Below, in pieces: positions 11,447 through 33,087 of a DNA stretch of 33,292 nucleotides (positions are counted from its first letter, which is position 1; each line of letters begins with the position of its first letter). The position numbers were made by a program, and so were the translations under genes. The notes beneath the pieces are model-generated. The model was not told the DNA's origin. It ran no database searches and was given only the letters and a program-made list of their open reading frames with translations. The DNA comes from Anaerolineales bacterium (GTDB lineage Bacteria; Chloroflexota; Anaerolineae; Anaerolineales; Villigracilaceae): positions 1-33,292 of the forward strand of contig JABWAU010000066.1 in the NCBI GenBank assembly GCA_013360875.1. Direction: 5' to 3'.

Positions 11447-11715
11447 AAAAGTGGCGCGCAGATGCAATTCGCCTGTGCAACGCATTGTACAAAGTGGACA
11501 AACGCTTCGCTGGTAATAAACCCGCCTATCAACAATTACTCAAGAGATTGGACGAAGTCAAGGATTTTAGCAAGATAGGCCTTAACCAATTGTTGATCGC
11601 CTGCGCCGCCGAACCATTTAACTACACGGGACCACGAGCCAAGTTGCCAAACAAATTCTTTTTTCAGTACGATTTCACGGCCCCATCCCCGGACTTGCAA
11701 TCACTTGCAATGTAA
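11359..11715 (+). CDS. C-terminal part of the frameshifted membrane protein
   Basis: This frame has no good start of its own. The TTG at 11359 lies in the middle of a helix that is already open from about 11302 in the same frame. Its helical, basic sequence (ARKSNDVKQRSQNLKKWRAD, ALYKVDKRFAGNKPAYQQLLKRLDEV) fits as the cytoplasmic continuation of the protein at 10718. It ends YDFTAPSPDLQSLAM. I read it as the C-terminus displaced by a one-base indel at the G run, not as a separate gene. Confidence 0.6.
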   Translation: MRSELPGFVCAYLTSARKSNDVKQRSQNLKKWRADAIRLCNALYKVDKRFAGNKPAYQQLLKRLDEVKDFSKIGLNQLLIACAAEPFNYTGPRAKLPNKFFFQYDFTAPSPDLQSLAM

Positions 11716-11765
11716 CCAATGGCGGATTTTGCCTGGTGCCGCGAATTCTTCATCAGAAAACGCCA

Positions 11766-11794
11766 TTGAAAATAGCCTGAAAACAACGTATACT
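11766..11794 (+). promoter_or_regulatory. Sigma70-type promoter for the M4 peptidase gene
   Basis: TTGAAA (11766-11771), a 17-bp spacer and TATACT (11789-11794) give a near-consensus housekeeping promoter. It lies 46 bp before the peptidase ATG and after the preceding stop. This suggests the peptidase and inhibitor can be transcribed apart from the unknown cluster upstream. Confidence 0.6.
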
Positions 11795-11839
11795 GACATT
11801 GTTCATCCGCATCCAACTCGCCAAGGAAAGGATTTCCCC

Positions 11840-12991
11840 ATGACCGCACATTTGCATCCTATTAACTGTATCGTTCCCCCGCACATGCTTGAAAAGATCG
11901 CCACAAACGGAACCGAAGCGCAAAGAAACCTGGCAATCGAAACGCTCAAGGCGTCCGAGCGAATGCGCGGCCAGCGCCGTGCATTAATGGACTTCTCTGC
12001 CGCCGCGTTCCGCGTCGCCGCAGCCGGAGCCGGAAAGGAACGCATCGTCTACGACGCGAAGAACGGCACCTCCCTGCCCGGCACGCCCGTCCGAAAAGAA
12101 GGCGACCCTCCCTCCTCCGACGTGGCGGTCAACGAGGCATACGATGGAAGCGGCGTAACGTACGACCTTTTCAAGGACATCTACGACCGCAACTCCATTG
12201 ACAACAACGGCATGAGAATGGACTCCACCGTCCATTACAGAAAGGGCTACGACAACGCCTTCTGGAACGGTGAGCAGATGGTCTACGGCGATGGAGATGA
12301 AGACCTGCCTCCCGCGGAGCGCCTCTTCAATCGCTTTACCATCGCCATTGACATCATCGGTCACGAACTGACCCACGGCGTCACGCAATTCGAGGCGAAA
12401 CTCGTTTACTCCTTCCAGCCCGGCGCGTTGAACGAATCCATGTCCGACGTGTTCGGCTCGCTCGTCAAGCAACGCCACCTCAACCAGACCGCCGCCGAAG
12501 CGGATTGGATCATCGGCGCGGGCTTGCTGACCGAAAACGTGAACGGCGTCGGCATCCGTTCCATGAAGGAGCCGGGAACCGCCTACAACGACCCGGTATT
12601 GGGCAAGGACCCGCAGCCCGGTCACATGAAGGATTACGTCAACACCGTCAGCGACAACGGCGGCGTGCATATCAATTCCGGGATCCCCAACCGTGCCTTT
12701 TACATCACCGCCACAGAACTGGGCGGTTACGCCTGGGAAAAAGCCGGGCAGATCTGGTACGTCACCCTCAGGGACAAACTTGGGACGAACTCCCAATTCC
12801 AGGATTGCGCCAACCTGACGTACGCCGTCGCCGCTGACCTTTTTGGCGCCGGAAGCCTCGAACAGATGGCGGTGAAAAAAGGCTGGGCGGAGGTCGGCAT
12901 CAACGTGGACGGCACCACTCCACCGCCCGAACCCGGCGGCTGTCTCGAATCGCTCTTGCGTATCATCGGCGCCGCGCCCGCGAAGAAATAG
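11840..12991 (+). CDS. Protealysin-like M4 (thermolysin family) metallopeptidase
   Basis: This 383-residue zinc endopeptidase has catalytic HELTH at 175-179 (zinc ligands H175 and H179, catalytic E176). The third ligand is E199 in NESMSD, and the thermolysin-type active-site His is H277 in DNGGVHINSGIPN. There is no signal peptide. Instead a short propeptide of about 50 residues carries IVPPHML at 11-17, which fits the PPL-type precursor motif of protealysin-like enzymes. That places it in the short-propeptide, non-classically exported branch. The C-terminal tail (TTPPPEPGG, then CLESLLRIIG) is a Pro-rich linker plus a small helix. The start at ATG 11840 is supported by AAGGAAAGG eight to sixteen bases upstream. 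The inhibitor gene follows after 8 bp. Confidence 0.9.
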   Translation: MTAHLHPINCIVPPHMLEKIATNGTEAQRNLAIETLKASERMRGQRRALMDFSAAAFRVAAAGAGKERIVYDAKNGTSLPGTPVRKEGDPPSSDVAVNEAYDGSGVTYDLFKDIYDRNSIDNNGMRMDSTVHYRKGYDNAFWNGEQMVYGDGDEDLPPAERLFNRFTIAIDIIGHELTHGVTQFEAKLVYSFQPGALNESMSDVFGSLVKQRHLNQTAAEADWIIGAGLLTENVNGVGIRSMKEPGTAYNDPVLGKDPQPGHMKDYVNTVSDNGGVHINSGIPNRAFYITATELGGYAWEKAGQIWYVTLRDKLGTNSQFQDCANLTYAVAADLFGAGSLEQMAVKKGWAEVGINVDGTTPPPEPGGCLESLLRIIGAAPAKK

Positions 12992-13469: not shown

Positions 13470-13587
13470 CGCTACACACCGTCTCGAAGGTTTGGGCTGG
13501 GAACGTGTCGGGTTTGCGGAGGACCTTCGGGAGGCGCACGGCGCAAGACGAGACACACAAAGACACGCAGCGAGGAAGGAGTTCAAC

Positions 13588-15198
13588 TTGAGGAAGATCA
13601 TCGGTCCCGACGTAAGTTTCTATCAGGACGACCCCAACACCCCGAACGGCATTGACTTCAGAAGAATGAACAACGTCGCGGATTTCGTCATCATCCGCGC
13701 CGGTCAAAACCTCTGGTTCGACCGCGATTTCACCAGGAACTGGGCGGCGGCAAAACAGGCGGGCTTGCCGCGCGGTTCCTACTGGTTCTACGATAGCCGC
13801 GCAGACCCCAAGGCGCAAGCCGAACTTTGGGCAAACCTGATACGAGACGACATGGGCGAACTGCCGCTCTTCGCGGATTTCGAAGAAACCTACAAAGGCG
13901 AATTTACAGGCTGGAGACACTGGAGGACCTTTCTCGACCATCTCCGCACGCTCGTCGGGCAAAAAGAGATCGGCATCTACACCGCCTATTTCTACTGGGT
14001 CAACAACGCCCCCAATCCAACCACCCAGCCGAACGAACTCGAATACTTCCACCGCTACCCTCTGTGGATCGCCAACTACGGCGTCGAAACTCCCCTCGTG
14101 CCAAAACCCTGGTCGCCGAACGAATGGTTGTTCTGGCAATTCACCGCCATGGGCGACGGCATCCTCTATGGGGTGGAAAGCGCCGAGATTGACCTGAACT
14201 ACTTCAACGGCGACGCGCAGGCGTTCGCAAACCGCTTCAACGTTCCCGCGCCGCAAGATCCGACCCCGCCACAACCCAGCGGCAAAAAATACGTGGTCAA
14301 CGCCGGGGCATTGTACGTGCGCCAGGGACCCGGCACGAACTACAAAGCCATCGGATACCTGCAACGCAACGACATCGTCGAAGCGTACGACCACAACGAG
14401 GACGGGACATGGCTGTACGTCAAACGCCTGAGCGACGGATTGATGGGCTGGTGCTCGATCACCTACCTGGTCCCCGTCACGCCTCCTCCCACGCCGGAGC
14501 CTGAACCGCCACCCCCGCCTCCTCCGCCTGATCCGGGCGATGGCGCGCGCTATCGCGTCACCGCCAGCGCGCTGTACGTCCGCGAAGGACCCGCCTCCTC
14601 GTTCAGGTCGGTGGGCTTCCTCGTCAGGGACGATATCGTCGTCGAACTGGAATCAAATTCGGATGGGAGTTGGAAGCGTGTCCGTCGCCTGCGCGATGGG
14701 TTGACGGGCTGGTGTTCGGTCAAATATCTGCTGCTCGTCAGCAACCCGCCTCCCGACGGTCCACCCCCCGACGGGACGCGTTACAAAGTGACTGCCGCCA
14801 GCCTGAACGTGCGCGAAGGTCCCGGCTCGAATTTCAAATCCCTGGGCTACGTCAGGCAGAACGAAATCGTGGACGGGATCGAAACGAATGCCGATAATAC
14901 GTGGATTAAGATTCGTAGGACCGATGGGTTGACCGGCTGGGCTTCCGCGCGGTATCTGTCTGAGGTCGCCGCTCCGCCCCCGCCCGACGATGGGACGGGA
15001 ACGAAATACCGGATCACGGCGACCCGCCTGCACGTCCGCGAGGGACCCGGCACGCAATACCGGTCACTGGGATACATCCAACAGAACGAGATCGTCACTG
15101 CCTTCAACGCCAACGCCGATCAAAGTTGGAGGCAGATCCGCCGGAGCGATGGGCTGGTCGGCTGGTCGTCCGCAAGATACATGACCCCGGTGACATGA
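13588..15198 (+). CDS. GH25 muramidase with four C-terminal SH3 domains
   Basis: This 536-residue peptidoglycan hydrolase cleaves MurNAc-GlcNAc bonds by family. The GH25 domain spans about 4-218: GPDVSFYQ (catalytic-site D8), the DxE pair D97 and E99 in FADFEE, and the family ending IDLNYFNG at 201-208. Four SH3b repeats follow at about 233-305, 335-403, 415-475 and 480-536, each with (L/A)xVR(Q/E)GP and a GW(C/A/S)S closing strand, joined by Pro-rich linkers. TTG 13588 is chosen because GAGGAAGGAG ends 6 bp upstream and the protein begins right at the fold; an upstream ATG at 13492 would add 32 low-complexity residues translated from repeat-like DNA. Neither start gives a signal peptide, which is odd for a wall hydrolase. 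An exported, phage-like or lysis-released role is possible. Confidence 0.85.
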   Translation: MRKIIGPDVSFYQDDPNTPNGIDFRRMNNVADFVIIRAGQNLWFDRDFTRNWAAAKQAGLPRGSYWFYDSRADPKAQAELWANLIRDDMGELPLFADFEETYKGEFTGWRHWRTFLDHLRTLVGQKEIGIYTAYFYWVNNAPNPTTQPNELEYFHRYPLWIANYGVETPLVPKPWSPNEWLFWQFTAMGDGILYGVESAEIDLNYFNGDAQAFANRFNVPAPQDPTPPQPSGKKYVVNAGALYVRQGPGTNYKAIGYLQRNDIVEAYDHNEDGTWLYVKRLSDGLMGWCSITYLVPVTPPPTPEPEPPPPPPPPDPGDGARYRVTASALYVREGPASSFRSVGFLVRDDIVVELESNSDGSWKRVRRLRDGLTGWCSVKYLLLVSNPPPDGPPPDGTRYKVTAASLNVREGPGSNFKSLGYVRQNEIVDGIETNADNTWIKIRRTDGLTGWASARYLSEVAAPPPPDDGTGTKYRITATRLHVREGPGTQYRSLGYIQQNEIVTAFNANADQSWRQIRRSDGLVGWSSARYMTPVT

Positions 15199-18070: not shown

Positions 18071-21000
18071 TCACGGCTCGCTGACCGTCAACGATTCGAA
18101 CGACACCTCCACCGGCAGGGTCTGTGGGGACGAGACGCCGATGCCGATCATGCCGCCTCTGAGGTTGTATTTCGCGTCCACGAGCGTTTTGACCAGTGTA
18201 TCGTTGACGTAGAGCGTGAGTTCGTTCCCGTTGCAAACGGCTCGATAGGTATTGGTCGCCTGCCCCGATTTGATCGCGCCGGAGCCTCCCCCGGCAAGTT
18301 GGACGTATCCCTGCAGGGCGGTGGCGGCCGGGTCATGCGCGCTGATCGAATACAAACCTGCGTTCGAGACCATGAACTCATACCAGTTTTCCCCGTTGTA
18401 ATGACAGACCAGGCTGACGCCGTTGGCATTATTGCCGTAATTCGCGGTCGTCAGTTCCAGTTGAACGCTGGAATAATCGGAGGCATTGTTCACCAGGTAA
18501 AACCTGGGGATCTTTTCCGCGTCCGGCGAGAGTTGAACGAACAGACTGCCGCCATCTGTTCGAGCGTTGACCTGATTTTCGGAGCCGGTCACCATGAAGC
18601 GTTCCCACGACGCGCCCAGGTCCGCATCGAATTCCTCCGTATAAAGGAGTTGGGAAGCGGGAGCCTGCGACGACACGTTACCGGACACTTCGCCGGCTTG
18701 GATTTCCACAGGTTGCTCCGCTTCATCCGTCGCGGCATATTCCAAAATAAGATTCCCATCGGGATCGCGAACGCGCCATACGTGGGCGGGATACGTCTCC
18801 TGCCGGTCGGTTTCTCCTGCGGGAATGGTCAGGTATAGTTGTTCCTTCCCTTCGAAATCCACCCAATACACCTCCACGTCGGTTGCCGTATTGTTCGTAA
18901 AAACAAGGGTGACAACCTCGTTGGCGGGCTGCGCCTCATCCGCTGCTCTGGGTTCGGGAGCGGACACCACGTATCCAAATAACGAAAGACTGCAATCATC
19001 GCGATACAGGTAGCGTTGACACTCCTCCGCCGTCAGAGGTTCGAGTTCGTATTCCTGCGCGATCTGCAACAGGGCATCATAGTCAATCGTGAATTCCTTG
19101 GAAGTCTTGTCGGCGCTGGCGGTCAAAACCTTTTTGTTGTCCGGGCTGAAAGCGACGGAATAGGCGTCCTCGTTATTCCCCTCGTATTTGTAGATCTCCT
19201 TGCCGGTTTCCGCATTCCACACGCGGACCGTGGTGTCCGCGCTCGCCGAAGCGATCAGTGAATCATCCTGGCTGATGTCGAGATCGAAAATCCTGCCGGT
19301 ATGCCCGGTCATGACGTTCATTTCCCTGCCTGTGTCGGCGTCCCATTTCCTGACGGTATTGTCAAACCCGCCGGTATACACATATTTGCCGTCACGACTG
19401 AAGATTGCAGTGATCACCTGATCGGTGTGACCGCGTAGTTCCACCAGCAATTCACCGGATTCGGCATCCATGATCTGGGCAACATTACCGGAGGGAACCA
19501 CGAAGCGTTTTCCATCCGGACTAATCCTTGGGTTGTACCCGCCTGTGTTGATTCCGCGTATGAAATTACCGGTCCGCGAATCCCATACGCTCACAACACC
19601 GCTTCCCTCCGAAAACACAGTACTGCCATCAGGACCAAAAACCGCCGATTCAATGGTGGAATCCTGACCCTCCATCGTCAGAACAGGCGCAGCCTGTCCC
19701 ACGACCCAAATCGAAATCGTGGAATCATGGACGATAACGACCCGATTGCCATCCTGCGGATCAAAGGAGACTGAGCGGCCGGTAAATTGACCAACGACCT
19801 CTCCCGTCGAGGCGTCGTGGATTAATATAACGCCGTTATCGTCAACCGTGGCGATCCATTTACCGTCCGAACTGTAATCGGCGTCCGTGTTGGGGGCGTT
19901 ATGCTGTTTGAACAGCAGGGTCTCGATCCTCAGGTTCGCCGCCCACAATTTTGCGGAGGAATCCCAACTGCCGGTCACCATCCGATCCCCGTCCGCGTTG
20001 AACGCGAGCGAGTTCACTTCTCCATGATGCGCCGACAGGTTGAAACGTTCGGTGCCGTAGACCCAGTCCCAGATCTTGATCCCGGCGGATACCGTGACCA
20101 TACTCAGGTTATCCGGGGCAAAATCCACGTCGTAGATGGTCGCCCGATTCCCGTTCAGCCGCTGGAGTTCGATCCCATTTTCCGCATTCCATACCACCAC
20201 CGTCTTATATCCTCCCGTAAGGACGCGCGTCCCATCCTGGCTGAATGCCACAGACTTTACAGACGTTCCGGATCGAAAACCTTCCGGGCGAAGTTTGAAA
20301 AGCAGGGAACTGGTTTCAACATCCCATACGATGGCGGTGCCGTCGTCGCTTCCGCTGACCAGCCGCGCGCCGCCCGGGCCGAAGTCCAGCGAGTTCACAA
20401 AGTTGGTGTGGCTGGGCAACGACACTTTCAGCGTTCCCGTATCGGCATACCATAATTTGACGAGATTATCGTCACCCGCCGTGGCGATCCACCTGCCGTC
20501 CGGGCTGAAGTCCAGATCGTTGATCCAACCATCGGGATGCCCGGCAATGGCGAACAATTCATCGCCGGTGTTCACGTCCACTACCTTTGCGGTTCCGTTC
20601 GAACTGGAGATGCCCAGTCGCCTTCCATCGGGGCTGAAATCCAACCCGGAAATGGAACTTTCGTCGTTGAACGGATTCAGGGTGTGAACCGTTTCCCGGC
20701 TTTCCACGTCAATGATCCTGACCATCCCATTGTCGTCGCCAAAGGCAGCGTAGGCGCCCGTTGGGTCGTAGGCGGTCTCCCATACGATCACGTCGTCGTT
20801 GAACCAGGTATGCAGAACGTTGGGCGTGTTCAAACTGGAGAACAGGGCTGACTTCGATTCGTCAAGGACAAATCCATCCGCCTCCGTCTCCTGAATGGAT
20901 AGCAAAGCCAGCATCAGGCTCAATTGCGTATCGCTGTTCCTCTGGTTGATGGCTTCCGACGCCAGCGCGAGCGCGTTCGCCACGCGAGCAACCGTTTGAG

Positions 21001-21853
21001 CGATTGCCTCATTCTCCTTCGCGATCTGCTCGTTCGCCACGGCGGTCGCGGCGTTATTATCCGCCCTGATCTGTTCCGCCACTGCGGTATTGGCATTGTT
21101 ATTAGCGCGGACGGTTTCCGCCTCCGCGACCCCCCATTGAATAAACGCAAAAATGGACAGCGCCAGCAAAGCCACGCCCACCACCGCCGCGATGATGCGG
21201 TTTCGTCTGCGGATCGACGCGGCGTATTTTCGAGCGGCTTGCACGTATTCGACGTGCAGGGGCGTCGGGGCCGGCTCCTTGCCTGCCGCGCCCTGACCGA
21301 TGAACGTCTCCGCATCCTGCAAGTCGTTCCCCCGCACGAGATAACTGTCATTGCGCCCCTTGGCATCCCATTCCTTTGCCCGGTTGAACAGGCGCGTGTG
21401 CTGGGCAAGCCAGTCCAGGTCCGTGTTGATCGCCTCGACCAGCGCCGGCAGGGTCTTATCCAGTTCCTGTTCGTCGCGGATGAAGACCCAGTTATGGGAG
21501 GAAATCTTTTCGTGAAGTTTTGATTCCTTGCCCGGCTCGCGGTATAGAATGGGAATGAAGCGTTTGTTACTCTCCACTGCAAGTTCGATCTCTTTCTTGC
21601 AGACCTCGGAAGCGACCGAATCCGGGCTGATCACAAAGATGAAGGCATTCGAAGATTGGATGCCCTTGGTGATCTCAGCCATCCAATCCGCGCTGAGGGG
21701 AATCCCCTCCCAATCCACCCAAATATCCTCGGGGGCAAAGCCCTTTGCCACCAGTCCGTCATACAGCTGCTTGACAAAGACCTTGTCCTTGCGGGAGTAT
21801 GAGATCATCAAACTTGCGGTCTTGCGGGGTGTGGAGGAGTCCTGAGATTCCAT
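18071..21853 (-). CDS. TIR-TM-coiled coil-WD40-VHL-like-LamG-like membrane protein (TIR protein 1)
   Basis: This protein has 1260 residues. TIR domain at 13-145: SLMISYSRKD, WVDWEGIPLSADW, and SPDSVASEVCKKEIE with candidate catalytic E88. A basic segment RRRNR (215-219) precedes a transmembrane helix at about 220-240, predicting TIR inside. An Asn/Ala-rich coiled coil follows (245-300). Fourteen WD40-type blades (about 350-918) could form two seven-bladed propellers, followed by an LTAEECQRYL tail. Residues 978-1045 resemble the pVHL beta domain, keeping W997, Y1007, T1020, H1024 and W1026. Residues 1070-1260 look like a LamG/ConA-like jelly roll. ATG 21853 is preferred to the 22-residue longer start because AAAGGA lies upstream and the extra codons are uncharacteristic. 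TIR domains cleave NAD+ or act as scaffolds; which applies here is unknown. Confidence 0.85.
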   Translation of the reverse strand: MESQDSSTPRKTASLMISYSRKDKVFVKQLYDGLVAKGFAPEDIWVDWEGIPLSADWMAEITKGIQSSNAFIFVISPDSVASEVCKKEIELAVESNKRFIPILYREPGKESKLHEKISSHNWVFIRDEQELDKTLPALVEAINTDLDWLAQHTRLFNRAKEWDAKGRNDSYLVRGNDLQDAETFIGQGAAGKEPAPTPLHVEYVQAARKYAASIRRRNRIIAAVVGVALLALSIFAFIQWGVAEAETVRANNNANTAVAEQIRADNNAATAVANEQIAKENEAIAQTVARVANALALASEAINQRNSDTQLSLMLALLSIQETEADGFVLDESKSALFSSLNTPNVLHTWFNDDVIVWETAYDPTGAYAAFGDDNGMVRIIDVESRETVHTLNPFNDESSISGLDFSPDGRRLGISSSNGTAKVVDVNTGDELFAIAGHPDGWINDLDFSPDGRWIATAGDDNLVKLWYADTGTLKVSLPSHTNFVNSLDFGPGGARLVSGSDDGTAIVWDVETSSLLFKLRPEGFRSGTSVKSVAFSQDGTRVLTGGYKTVVVWNAENGIELQRLNGNRATIYDVDFAPDNLSMVTVSAGIKIWDWVYGTERFNLSAHHGEVNSLAFNADGDRMVTGSWDSSAKLWAANLRIETLLFKQHNAPNTDADYSSDGKWIATVDDNGVILIHDASTGEVVGQFTGRSVSFDPQDGNRVVIVHDSTISIWVVGQAAPVLTMEGQDSTIESAVFGPDGSTVFSEGSGVVSVWDSRTGNFIRGINTGGYNPRISPDGKRFVVPSGNVAQIMDAESGELLVELRGHTDQVITAIFSRDGKYVYTGGFDNTVRKWDADTGREMNVMTGHTGRIFDLDISQDDSLIASASADTTVRVWNAETGKEIYKYEGNNEDAYSVAFSPDNKKVLTASADKTSKEFTIDYDALLQIAQEYELEPLTAEECQRYLYRDDCSLSLFGYVVSAPEPRAADEAQPANEVVTLVFTNNTATDVEVYWVDFEGKEQLYLTIPAGETDRQETYPAHVWRVRDPDGNLILEYAATDEAEQPVEIQAGEVSGNVSSQAPASQLLYTEEFDADLGASWERFMVTGSENQVNARTDGGSLFVQLSPDAEKIPRFYLVNNASDYSSVQLELTTANYGNNANGVSLVCHYNGENWYEFMVSNAGLYSISAHDPAATALQGYVQLAGGGSGAIKSGQATNTYRAVCNGNELTLYVNDTLVKTLVDAKYNLRGGMIGIGVSSPQTLPVEVSFESLTVSEP

Positions 21854-21878
21854 CTCGATGTCCGTCCTTTCGTTAATT

Positions 21879-21893
21879 GGACATACCTTGTCC
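21879..21893. promoter_or_regulatory. Small inverted repeat upstream of TIR protein 1
   Basis: GGACA-TACCT-TGTCC lies 26 bp upstream of the TIR start and close to a possible minus-strand -10 (TAATAC). It could be an operator, but it is short and unrepeated in the window. Confidence 0.25.
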
Positions 21894-21923
21894 TGTATTA
21901 CTAACCCCCCTATGGGCAATGGG

Positions 21924-29971: not shown

Positions 29972-32953
29972 TCACGGCACAGGCAGTCCTTCGCACAGCG
30001 TCCTGTACTCCTCATTGCCGAAGAAATTGCTCCACTGCGCCTGCGAGAAGTTCGTCGTGAGGCGGGCGCACGCGGCGTTGACCAGTTCATTCGCGTCAAC
30101 GTCCTCGATGCGCGGGACGACCCAGAATTGAATCGCCTTCAACGACGCGGTCGCCATGACGTTCCCATCCGCCGAATAGGAGACGCCGCTCACATTGCCT
30201 GCGTGCGGGATGCGCGCAGCCTCCCTGACGGTGAGGGGATTGATGAGGAACACATCGTTACGCGCGCCTGCCGCCAGCGTGCGCCCGTTCGGGTTAAACG
30301 CCAGCGAATGGATAGAATCCTTGCGGATGGAACCCACCCGGCTGAATCCCCCGTTCTCGAATTTCCAAACTTCGATCAAGCCGGCAGAATTGGCGGACGC
30401 CAGCAGGGAGCCGTCCACGTTGAAGGCGAGGAGGGCGTGATCGCCGGGGGCTTGAATCTCCGTGACCTCCTCCCCGTCCGGCGCGAGGATCGCGATCCTG
30501 TCCGTTGCGCCTAATGCAATGTGAGAGGGGCTGGCTGCCACAGAGGTAACGCCCGATCCTGCCTTCGCGAGGTCGGCGGTCTTTCTCAAGGAGGCAAGAC
30601 TCCACATCTCTACAGACCCATTGGCGCTGCACGCGATCAAATACACGCTGTCGGGCGTGAAGGCGATCTGGGTTCCCAAACCCGTTTGGAAGAGGGTCTT
30701 CGGTTGTCTGGTTTGAAGGTTGTACACGAGGACCTGTCCGTTGACGGTGGAGACGCCCAGCCATACGGAATCGGGACTGAATACCACATCGCTCACATTG
30801 CCGTTCAAAGTCAGGTTCGGCGTGCCCAGCGAACGCGCTGTCAGCGTGGGTGACTGCCCGGGTCTCAGCAGCCAGACCCGGTTGGAGTCCGAAGCGGCGA
30901 TCCAGTCACCGGAAGGGCTGAACTGGACGTCGCCAGCCAAACCGTCGAACTGAACGTAACTTTCAGGCGCGGGCATCACGGAGATATCCCAAAGGCTGAT
31001 CTCGCCGGTCTTGTCGCCCGTCACGAGATTTCCGCTATCGCCGCTGAAGCCCAGCGCGAGGCCCTCCCCTTCGAGCGGAATCTGAAACATCTCCGCGCCG
31101 GTGGAGGCGTTCCATACGCGCACGGTTCGATCCGCGCCTGTGGTGGCAAGCCATTGACCGTTTGCGCTCACCTTGACTTCGTTCACGTAACCCTCCTGCG
31201 ACATCCGCAGTCGTTCCCCGCCGTCGGGCGTATCCCAAAGACGGATGCGCCGGTCGTTGGAAACGGTGGCAAACCACGAACTATCCGGGGCGACGGCGAT
31301 GTCCGTCACCCAATCCTCGTGCAGGAGTCGATAGACTTCCTGTCCGTTGGATGTGCGCGCCGCGACGGCATAGCCATCCGCGCCGCCGGTGATCAGATAA
31401 CGGCTGTCGGGGCTGAAGGCAAGCGCAAGCACTTCGCCCCTATGCCGCCCGCTGGAGACGATGGTTCCGTCAACCAGATTCCAGAGCGTCACGGTTCCGG
31501 TGACGGAGCCGGATGCGATGTATCTGCCGTTCGGACTGAACGAGGCGATCTTGAGGCGGTCGAACGCCTGCAGGTCATATTTCCGTTTGCCGGTTTGCGC
31601 GTCCAGCAGGGTGATGCGCCCATCGTCACGCGTGATCGCAACCTGGTCGCCGTTCCTGCGGATGTCCACGTCGCGGACGATTCCCCCGGCGTCGTAGGTG
31701 TACAAGGTCTCTCCATCCTCCACGCGGATGAATTGGACAAGTCCCGATTCATCTCCTGTGACGATCAGTTTTCCATCGGGACTGAACGCCGCGTCATTCA
31801 CGGAGCCGGGGCTGGGCGCGCAAAAAAGCATTTCCCCATCCGACGCCTTCCACACGCACGCGTTCCCGTCGGTCCCCGTGACGACGAACAGGTTGCCTTG
31901 TGCGTCGAAGTTCAGCGAGTTGATGGCGCCCTCGCGCCGCGTCTGTTTCACCGGAATGGGCAGAAGGCTGATATTCCTCCGCAGGATTTCCTCCGATTCA
32001 TCGGAGGGCGCGGTCGCCCACGAAGCGATGGCGAGAAGCGTGCTTGTGTACAACTCTCCCGGTTGTGCCTGGTAGATCTGCGCCCGTGCCGCGCTCTGTT
32101 GCGCCAGCGCGAACCTCGCCCGTTCTTCCGCAATGGCTCGTTGATCCTCAGCCTCCTGTTGCGCCCGTCTTGCCTCCCTTTCGTTGCGACGCGCGAGGTC
32201 CGCGTTCGCTTCGGCGATATCCCTCTGCTGGTTGGCAAGGATCGCGTTACGGGTCGCCAGCTCGGCGTTCTCCGCGGCGAGGCTGCGCTGGTAATTGGCA
32301 AAGAACGTCAATCCCGCCAGCGCCGCAATGATGACGATCGTCGCTGCCAACAGGATGTTCCTCTGCTTTTCCCTTTGAACGCTGTAGCGCAGGAACATCT
32401 CCTGCAAGGAAGTCGGTTTGGGTTCCCTGCCCATCGCCGCCTCGACAGCCTTTCGCACACGGCGCAGTTCACTCCCGCGCAGGAGGAGGCTGGGGTCTTT
32501 TCCCCGGTGCCATTTGAGCGCGTCCGCCTGGATGCGGTTGTGTTCCGCCACCCATTCGAAATCCAATTCGAGCGCGTCCCTGAACTTTGCCAGCGCCGCC
32601 TGAAAATCATCCCCCCTGCGCATGAAGATCCAATTGAGCTTTCGGATGACCGGGTGGGTATCCGCGGGCGGAACTTCGCGCAGAACGATGGGAATGATGC
32701 GTTTGTTGTTCAGGTCCGCGCGCTCGATCTCCGCCTTGCACACATTGGATTTGACCGAGTCCGGGCTGACGAGGAAGATGAAGGCGTCCGACCCTTCGAT
32801 GCCGCGGAAAACCTGCTCCAGCCAGTCTGTCGCGGGAGGGATGTCCTCCCAATCCACCCACACGTCGTAGCCCATCTCCGCGAAGGCGTTGATGAGTTTC
32901 CGCGCGGGTTTCGAATCTTTCCTCGAATATGATACGAATATTTTTGCCGACAT
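29972..32953 (-). CDS. TIR-TM-coiled coil-WD40 membrane protein (TIR protein 2)
   Basis: This 993-residue protein carries a TIR domain at 3-135: KIFVSYSRKD, WVDWEDIPPATDW, and SPDSVKSNVCKAEIE with candidate catalytic E75. A linker region (HNRIQADALKWHRGKDPSLLLRGSEL) is shared in style with TIR protein 1. Basic residues (REKQR) precede a transmembrane helix at about 199-219, predicting TIR inside. A long Glu/Ala/Arg-rich coiled coil follows (222-295), then about 14-15 WD40-type blades (335-955), and a Cys-containing tail (ACARLTTNFSQAQWSNFF ... CEGLPVP). It lacks the VHL-like and LamG-like domains. ATG 32953 is preferred over a start 8 residues upstream because it begins at the domain and has AAGG upstream. 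NADase activity is possible but unproven. Confidence 0.87.
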   Translation of the reverse strand: MSAKIFVSYSRKDSKPARKLINAFAEMGYDVWVDWEDIPPATDWLEQVFRGIEGSDAFIFLVSPDSVKSNVCKAEIERADLNNKRIIPIVLREVPPADTHPVIRKLNWIFMRRGDDFQAALAKFRDALELDFEWVAEHNRIQADALKWHRGKDPSLLLRGSELRRVRKAVEAAMGREPKPTSLQEMFLRYSVQREKQRNILLAATIVIIAALAGLTFFANYQRSLAAENAELATRNAILANQQRDIAEANADLARRNEREARRAQQEAEDQRAIAEERARFALAQQSAARAQIYQAQPGELYTSTLLAIASWATAPSDESEEILRRNISLLPIPVKQTRREGAINSLNFDAQGNLFVVTGTDGNACVWKASDGEMLFCAPSPGSVNDAAFSPDGKLIVTGDESGLVQFIRVEDGETLYTYDAGGIVRDVDIRRNGDQVAITRDDGRITLLDAQTGKRKYDLQAFDRLKIASFSPNGRYIASGSVTGTVTLWNLVDGTIVSSGRHRGEVLALAFSPDSRYLITGGADGYAVAARTSNGQEVYRLLHEDWVTDIAVAPDSSWFATVSNDRRIRLWDTPDGGERLRMSQEGYVNEVKVSANGQWLATTGADRTVRVWNASTGAEMFQIPLEGEGLALGFSGDSGNLVTGDKTGEISLWDISVMPAPESYVQFDGLAGDVQFSPSGDWIAASDSNRVWLLRPGQSPTLTARSLGTPNLTLNGNVSDVVFSPDSVWLGVSTVNGQVLVYNLQTRQPKTLFQTGLGTQIAFTPDSVYLIACSANGSVEMWSLASLRKTADLAKAGSGVTSVAASPSHIALGATDRIAILAPDGEEVTEIQAPGDHALLAFNVDGSLLASANSAGLIEVWKFENGGFSRVGSIRKDSIHSLAFNPNGRTLAAGARNDVFLINPLTVREAARIPHAGNVSGVSYSADGNVMATASLKAIQFWVVPRIEDVDANELVNAACARLTTNFSQAQWSNFFGNEEYRTLCEGLPVP

Positions 32954-33087
32954 GCGCGCCTGCCTTCTAAGATGCAAAGCCCGTTCGTGCCAACCCTTTT
33001 ACTTATCCGCTATTGTATCAGCCCGGCGGAAATTGGAGAACTCCCTCGGTCTTTCGGCGCATGGCTTTCTCCTTATCGGGATTCACG

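Follow-up and report, generated by a model that had tools for sequence, protein, structure and literature searches.

A VHL beta-domain-like module with a retained hydroxyproline-pocket pattern in bacterial TIR-WD40 proteins of predicted receptor layout

As a reader of hydroxyproline the tumour suppressor pVHL is a textbook case, and targeted protein degradation makes wide use of it as a handle; how its pocket originated outside animals has, to our knowledge, not been settled. Among bacterial TIR systems, Thoeris ThsB and Cat1 act as intracellular sensors of phage or CRISPR signals. According to the accessible part of PMC9528729, the hydroxyproline site of pVHL consists of W88, Y98, H110, S111, H115 and W117; the hydroxyl of the hydroxyproline is hydrogen-bonded by S111 and H115, its carbonyl is held by Y98, and its amide is hydrogen-bonded to the backbone carbonyl of H110. 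A first, sequence-only reading of the DNA analysed here had supposed that VHL-like domains of bacteria may already be catalogued. They are, in PF01847, and one such protein, the predicted secreted EMK97_00595 of Litorilituus sediminis, is described in the available text of PMC9002001.

Our window, the whole stretch of 33,292 nucleotides from an Anaerolineales bacterium, contains one long open reading frame (ORF) that joins, in this order, a TIR domain, one predicted transmembrane helix, two WD40 propellers, a VHL beta-domain-like module and a jelly-roll-like domain (Table 1). The frame is counted from a TTG codon; the likely start is Met 23 (MESQ...), at about 21853, and the same Met is present in the relative L002. 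Since the sequence-only reading counted from this internal Met, ORF positions equal its positions plus 22, and the four strings that it quoted were found in the protein at ORF residues 1002, 1015, 1027 and 1041.

Table 1. Features of the TIR-WD40-VHL protein in the window. Residues are numbered on the ORF; numbers of the sequence-only reading are in brackets.
Feature	Position	Strand	Basis or remark
Whole ORF	18071..21919	minus	1282 aa counted from TTG
TIR domain (PF13676)	21458..21808	minus	77.6 bits against a cut-off of 28; predicted cytoplasmic
Single predicted transmembrane helix, residues 242-262	21134..21196	minus	hydropathy
WD40 region, two modelled beta-propellers	19088..20785	minus	PF00400 in 9 stretches; predicted outside the cell
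VHL beta-domain-like module	18701..18916	minus	PF01847, PDB sequence match, fold match; ends from profile match
W1019 (W997), pVHL W88	18863..18865	minus	phmmer alignment
Y1029 (Y1007), pVHL Y98	18833..18835	minus	phmmer alignment
T1042 (T1020), pVHL S111	18794..18796	minus	phmmer alignment
H1046 (H1024), pVHL H115	18782..18784	minus	phmmer alignment
W1048 (W1026), pVHL W117	18776..18778	minus	phmmer alignment
C-terminal domain, perhaps jelly roll	18074..18658	minus	PF06439, 20.3 bits, below the cut-off of 26.8

The predicted helix has a mean hydropathy of 2.43 over its 21 residues, the next best non-overlapping stretch reaching 1.46, and the basic flank RKYAASIRRRNR stands before it. From this one predicted helix and the charge bias we infer, by the positive-inside rule, that the TIR domain lies inside the cell and the remainder outside. 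The module had been read as part of an outward-facing protein with TIR and WD40 domains; it does belong to a protein in which TIR and WD40 domains flank a predicted transmembrane helix, and this layout would place it outside the cell. Such a location agrees with most of the other VHL-like proteins whose N-terminus was read, which by eye have a signal, lipoprotein or membrane segment at their start. Glu110 of the TIR domain aligns with the Glu of the CWDE stretch in the TIR protein Cat1, which we take to be the catalytic residue of TIR NADases. The propellers occupy about residues 379-660 and 677-944 (strands 50-331 and 348-615 of the AlphaFold2 model m65ea73fbafae), with pLDDT below 50 between them and in a few blocks.

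The C-terminal domain may have a jelly-roll fold of the 3-keto-disaccharide hydrolase or LamG-like kind. Its earlier label, 'LamG-like', survives as an approximation, the match to PF06439 (3-keto-disaccharide hydrolase) falling short of the cut-off, and a search of PDB sequences gave no match at E up to 1. A query of 309 residues (974-1282) found matches in 57 of 61 family genomes, nearly all of those listed falling in the C-terminal part. This domain is commoner than the VHL module, and its relatives often lie in ORFs of about 270 residues.

The VHL module and the pVHL beta domain are truly homologous. PF01847 matches at residues ~1002-1056 with 32.9 bits (cut-off 21, E 6.8e-8), so that the Pfam search proposed in the sequence-only reading comes out in favour of the likeness seen by eye; pVHL is in addition the best match among PDB sequences and the top match by fold. 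In a Pfam scan of the full protein, PF01847 is not among the best 25 of the 58 matching families. When the whole genome was searched in six frames, PF01847 matched in one place, 18752-18919 on the minus strand (E 2.7e-7), and 0 of 14 control genomes gave a match. The module coordinates derive from a profile whose alignment includes the module. The phmmer match to pVHL (E 2.2e-5) covers 55 residues without a gap, and 18 of these 55 aligned positions are identical. The pVHL alpha domain with the elongin C box was absent after the module in Pfam scans of residues 990-1090 and 1088-1282 (E up to 10, with HMMER filters that drop most weak matches), so an elongin-type E3 role is not expected. Relatives of an 80-residue query were sought in viral contigs and phage records and none was found, and a phage or viral origin was rejected on that ground; in plasmids three distant relatives turned up, each matching no more than 80% of the query.

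To obtain a structural view, residues 990-1085 were modelled with AlphaFold2 from an alignment of two sequences, those of the window protein and L002. The model has seven strands and a modest mean pLDDT of 68.5, with blocks of 70-85 over model residues 11-70. Foldseek returned pVHL as the best match (E 1.3e-5), and the best rows in VIA were likewise VHL, with Z up to 10.0 and rmsd of 3.7-4.8 over 84-87 aligned residues (e.g. rmsd 4.0 over 85); in each search the 50 best rows listed are all VHL complexes by title. The Foldseek match to 4awj, a complex with capped hydroxyproline, gave 2.2 A over 81 columns. Because the predictor was trained on pVHL, sequence and fold searches are not independent lines of evidence, and the model supports the homology without being independent proof of it. 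Superposition of a model on pVHL had also been proposed, and as far as the fold goes the predicted module agrees with pVHL in both searches. In a longer AlphaFold2 model (residues 330-1282) the propellers are good and the VHL and C-terminal parts contain blocks with pLDDT below 40; it is uninformative for the VHL module and was left unused there.

The four identical pocket residues and the Ser-to-Thr exchange first matched by eye hold in the gapless phmmer alignment to pVHL. W88, Y98, H115 and W117 have identical counterparts, S111 is conservatively replaced by Thr, and F76, F91 and Y112 of pVHL are likewise retained. Conservation is somewhat higher in the pocket than elsewhere in the domain (hypergeometric p = 0.035 for at least 4 of 5 pocket identities, given 18 of 55 overall). 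With four identities and a Thr at position 111, the ring cage and the hydroxyl-recognising pair would be present in the module. Among the residues of the flank-reading groove, I109, R107 and P99 of pVHL are altered to Q, D and L; parts of the grooves for the HIF-peptide flanks differ while the ring cage is, as judged from the alignment, retained. L002 has the same five pocket residues, and dN/dS against it is 0.26 for the module and 0.21 for the whole gene.

The reading that we prefer, and to which we give about an even chance, is that an outer-surface module binds an external ring-bearing ligand, perhaps proline or hydroxyproline, on a single-pass TIR receptor whose TIR domain is thereby switched on; the topology, the ligand class and the coupling to TIR are what we infer here. 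Directly established are which domains the protein has and their order, the VHL homology, the pocket residues and the recurrent combination. The receptor would carry its TIR domain inside, with the propellers, the VHL beta-domain and the jelly-roll-like domain outside. An external peptide presenting a proline- or hydroxyproline-like ring would enter the VHL cage, and this binding, in concert with the propellers, would bring receptors together or change their orientation. Clustering would then switch on NAD+ cleavage or signalling by TIR. As for hydroxyproline in particular, the pocket chemistry speaks for it as the ligand, on evidence that is thin overall.

The layout recurs beyond the window protein. 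Scans with PF01847 at E up to 0.01 gave matches in 5 of 298 genomes class-wide (3 over the cut-off) and in 6 of 400 phylum-wide (2 over the cut-off), three of these genomes being common to the class-wide set. Three loci below the cut-off and without a visible VHL pattern (L005, L008 and L009) were excluded from all counts; L006 was retained though below the cut-off (19.4 bits), two VHL patterns being visible in its proteins. A purpose-made profile detected VHL-like domains in 7 of 201 genomes of the order and in 1 of 177 of another class; among the 152 genomes of the family 17 matched, the profile there being built from 18 bacterial domains. Proteins with TIR, transmembrane helix, WD40 and VHL occur in four of the 152 family genomes: the source genome, G1000, G947 and G1054. 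L002, on a contig of Chloroflexi bacterium CFX6, has the same architecture as the window protein, and the carrier of G1000 (L048) is of the same type as L002. The carrier of G947 (L045) has one VHL domain, at its extreme end, and that of G1054 (L068, G1054:C215:1-4800) has three tandem VHL copies on a TIR-TM-WD40 protein. Pocket residues are lost in two of these copies, and the last has W, T, H and W with Phe for Y98.

Matches to the TIR-TM part, counted irrespective of WD40 repeats, are present at E up to 1e-30 in 67 of the 152 family genomes. Several of these relatives have open frames of about 1320-1380 aa, against the usual 1000 aa, and the longer ones may carry other exchangeable C-terminal modules. 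The source genome has nine TIR_2 matches, and a second TIR-TM-WD40 protein, without the VHL or the C-terminal domain, lies in the window itself (29972-32977, minus strand). A TIR-TM tree of 20 rows was built after a motif filter. Of the 28 relatives L078-L105, 14 passed it, as did the second TIR protein of the window and, of three further TIR loci tried from the source genome, one; rows entered whatever their WD40 content, and 'VHL-less' in this tree means no match in the family VHL-profile survey. The VHL carriers form two fully supported pairs, the window protein with L002 and L045 with L068, and 0% of 200 bootstrap trees account for the four carriers by one change. The starred branches of the tree, taken alone, are compatible with a single origin of the combination. 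The suggestion that the joining of VHL to TIR and WD40 was new stands in the sense that none is reported in the literature searched, and falls as regards uniqueness to this protein, which was rejected since the combination recurs in 4 of 152 family genomes, on two branches.

VHL-like domains were found on other kinds of protein as well. Five lipoproteins (L015, L016, L017, L018 and L020) join one to a region with an HExxH motif, seen by eye; when three HExxH lipoproteins were run against Pfam, two were sub-threshold to metallopeptidase families and one had no match. Further cases are a tandem VHL-like protein with a signal segment (L003), more lipoproteins (L046 and L070-L073) and small proteins on cyanobacterial and alphaproteobacterial plasmids. 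The window also encodes, by eye, a lysozyme-like protein with four SH3b-looking repeats (13492-15198, plus strand) and a thermolysin-like protease with HELTH (11705-12991, plus strand).

Conservation was tabulated over 20, then 32, then 38 bacterial domains, the third table adding six family hits omitted from the second; the queries or profiles that retrieved the domains all contained the pocket columns, which biases conservation upward. The best-kept column is N78 (36 of 38), which lies outside the hydroxyproline site. W117 is kept in 32 of the 38 and W88 in 29. Position 111 is Ser or Thr in 29 and lost in nine; in seven of the 38 homologues, including the VHL module of the TIR receptor L045, it is Ala. 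H115 is kept in 25 and ranks 11 of 54 columns, down from 2 of 55 with the first 20 domains, before the weaker family hits joined; Y98 is Tyr in 15, or 22 counting Phe, and ranks 30 of 54. The full set of W, Y, S/T, H and W is found in 8 of the 38 domains. W88 and H115 occur together in 25 domains and are jointly lost in nine; W88 alone remains in four and H115 alone in none. This co-loss gives a Fisher value of 1e-4 on 32 domains, where relatedness inflates the counts and independent events are not counted; seven of the nine double-loss domains (L022, L065, L074, L058, L057, L061 and L062) look like one orthologous group. L022 is a second VHL-like domain of the source genome (G000:C127:1177-1392, plus strand), in a linker-rich protein, with Leu for W88 and Gln for H115. 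Similar proteins in sister genomes show this state again, or one close to it, and L022 offers a natural pocket-less control.

These columns bear on the most serious rival, that the module is a structural spacer or adhesion-type beta domain whose pocket residues are kept for the fold, with no ring ligand, which we regard as unlikely though by no means negligible. Part of the column conservation is structural: the best-kept columns include N78 and also W117, a member of the pVHL aromatic core according to PMC3688787. A spacer would also fit the poor keeping of Y98 and the joining of VHL-like domains to very different proteins, as is often the case with spacer domains. The behaviour of W88 and H115 argues against it. 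Since 9 of 38 still-recognisable domains have lost both residues, and double-loss domains such as L022 still match the profile, the pair is not required for the domain, yet both are kept in 25 of the 38. Moreover, we know of no core role for H115 in pVHL. The pattern suggests a pocket that may be kept or discarded as one functional unit, dispensable for the fold.

In a narrower rival reading, hydroxyproline itself is the ligand: the module would bind it in foreign proteins (collagens, for example, or the hydroxyproline-rich glycoproteins of plants and algae) and report it to TIR; we think this improbable. A hydroxyl residue at 111 and a His at 115 are the partners of the hydroxyproline hydroxyl in pVHL (PMC9528729, accessible part), the predicted outside location would suit such a role, and VHL-like domains on lipoproteins with HExxH (by eye, sub-threshold in Pfam) would fit the targeting of such proteins. 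Against this, Ala stands at 111 in the seven homologues noted above, one of them on a TIR receptor, the HIF-flank groove residues differ, and PF05544 (proline racemase / hydroxyproline epimerase), which matches in 83 of 152 family genomes, has no match in the four TIR-WD40-VHL genomes. Hydroxyproline catabolism was consequently rejected as support for hydroxyproline reading, the carrier genomes having no PF05544 match. The hydroxyproline could also be self-made. For the oxygenase PF13640, the one oxygenase family searched, there was no match in the source genome and in 0 of 152 family genomes, with matches in 2 of 14 control genomes; self-made hydroxyproline by the PF13640 route is unlikely and was rejected. 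Absence of PF13640 and PF05544 is against hydroxyproline or neutral for it, because an exogenous ligand needs neither. A broader proposal would have bacteria read prolyl hydroxylation at their surface, the VHL module seeing foreign or eukaryotic hydroxyproline and firing a TIR alarm, with the hydroxyproline pocket as an old extracellular device later taken over for HIF; we consider it speculative and rather doubtful.

Chance resemblance of a short beta-rich stretch, which the length of the module (about 60-75 residues) and the moderate HMMER E-values might have favoured, has practically no probability left, being refuted by the agreement of Pfam, the PDB sequence search, the genome-wide search with its matchless controls and the fold searches.

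The preferred reading, of a ring-binding module on a TIR receptor, can be set beside the known systems. The likeness to Thoeris ThsB and Cat1 is weak and limited to the TIR stretch, and the window protein, unlike these, has a predicted outer part. No full-length Thoeris match was found (PADLOC matched the TIR stretch only, at 24.6 bits, and NCBIfam ThcB4 gave 17.3 bits against a cut-off of 220), and by eye no Thoeris- or CRISPR-type partner was seen among the neighbouring ORFs. VHL joined to a bacterial TIR or WD40 domain is not reported in the literature searched (titles and starts of abstracts, from partial hit lists, with no bioRxiv preprints and few subscription-journal papers), and 'VHL' and 'Hippel' are absent from the searched portions of the bacterial conflict-system papers PMC7159879, PMC8195603 and PMC10907252. 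The second TIR protein of the window has TIR, predicted helix and WD40 in the same order and is without the VHL and C-terminal domains. EMK97_00595 and the plasmid proteins of Calothrix and Nostoc (L010 and L012) contain the same domain, in the latter two with a W, Y, T, H, W set identical to that of the window module, but they are small and without TIR, WD40 or the receptor layout. With the human pVHL beta domain (PF01847; PDB 1LM8, 4AWJ) the module shares the sequence family, the predicted fold and four of five hydroxyproline-pocket side chains; it differs in having no alpha-domain match, a predicted outside location and altered flank grooves. Overall, bacterial VHL domains were known, and what appears new is a recurring TIR-WD40 receptor context with a testable pocket, unreported in the literature searched. 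Bacterial homologues that have the pocket as a set, one of them on a TIR receptor, make it testable whether ring recognition predates oxygen sensing. Furthermore, these pocket-bearing homologues suggest which kind of ligand some TIR-WD40 proteins of bacteria might sense.
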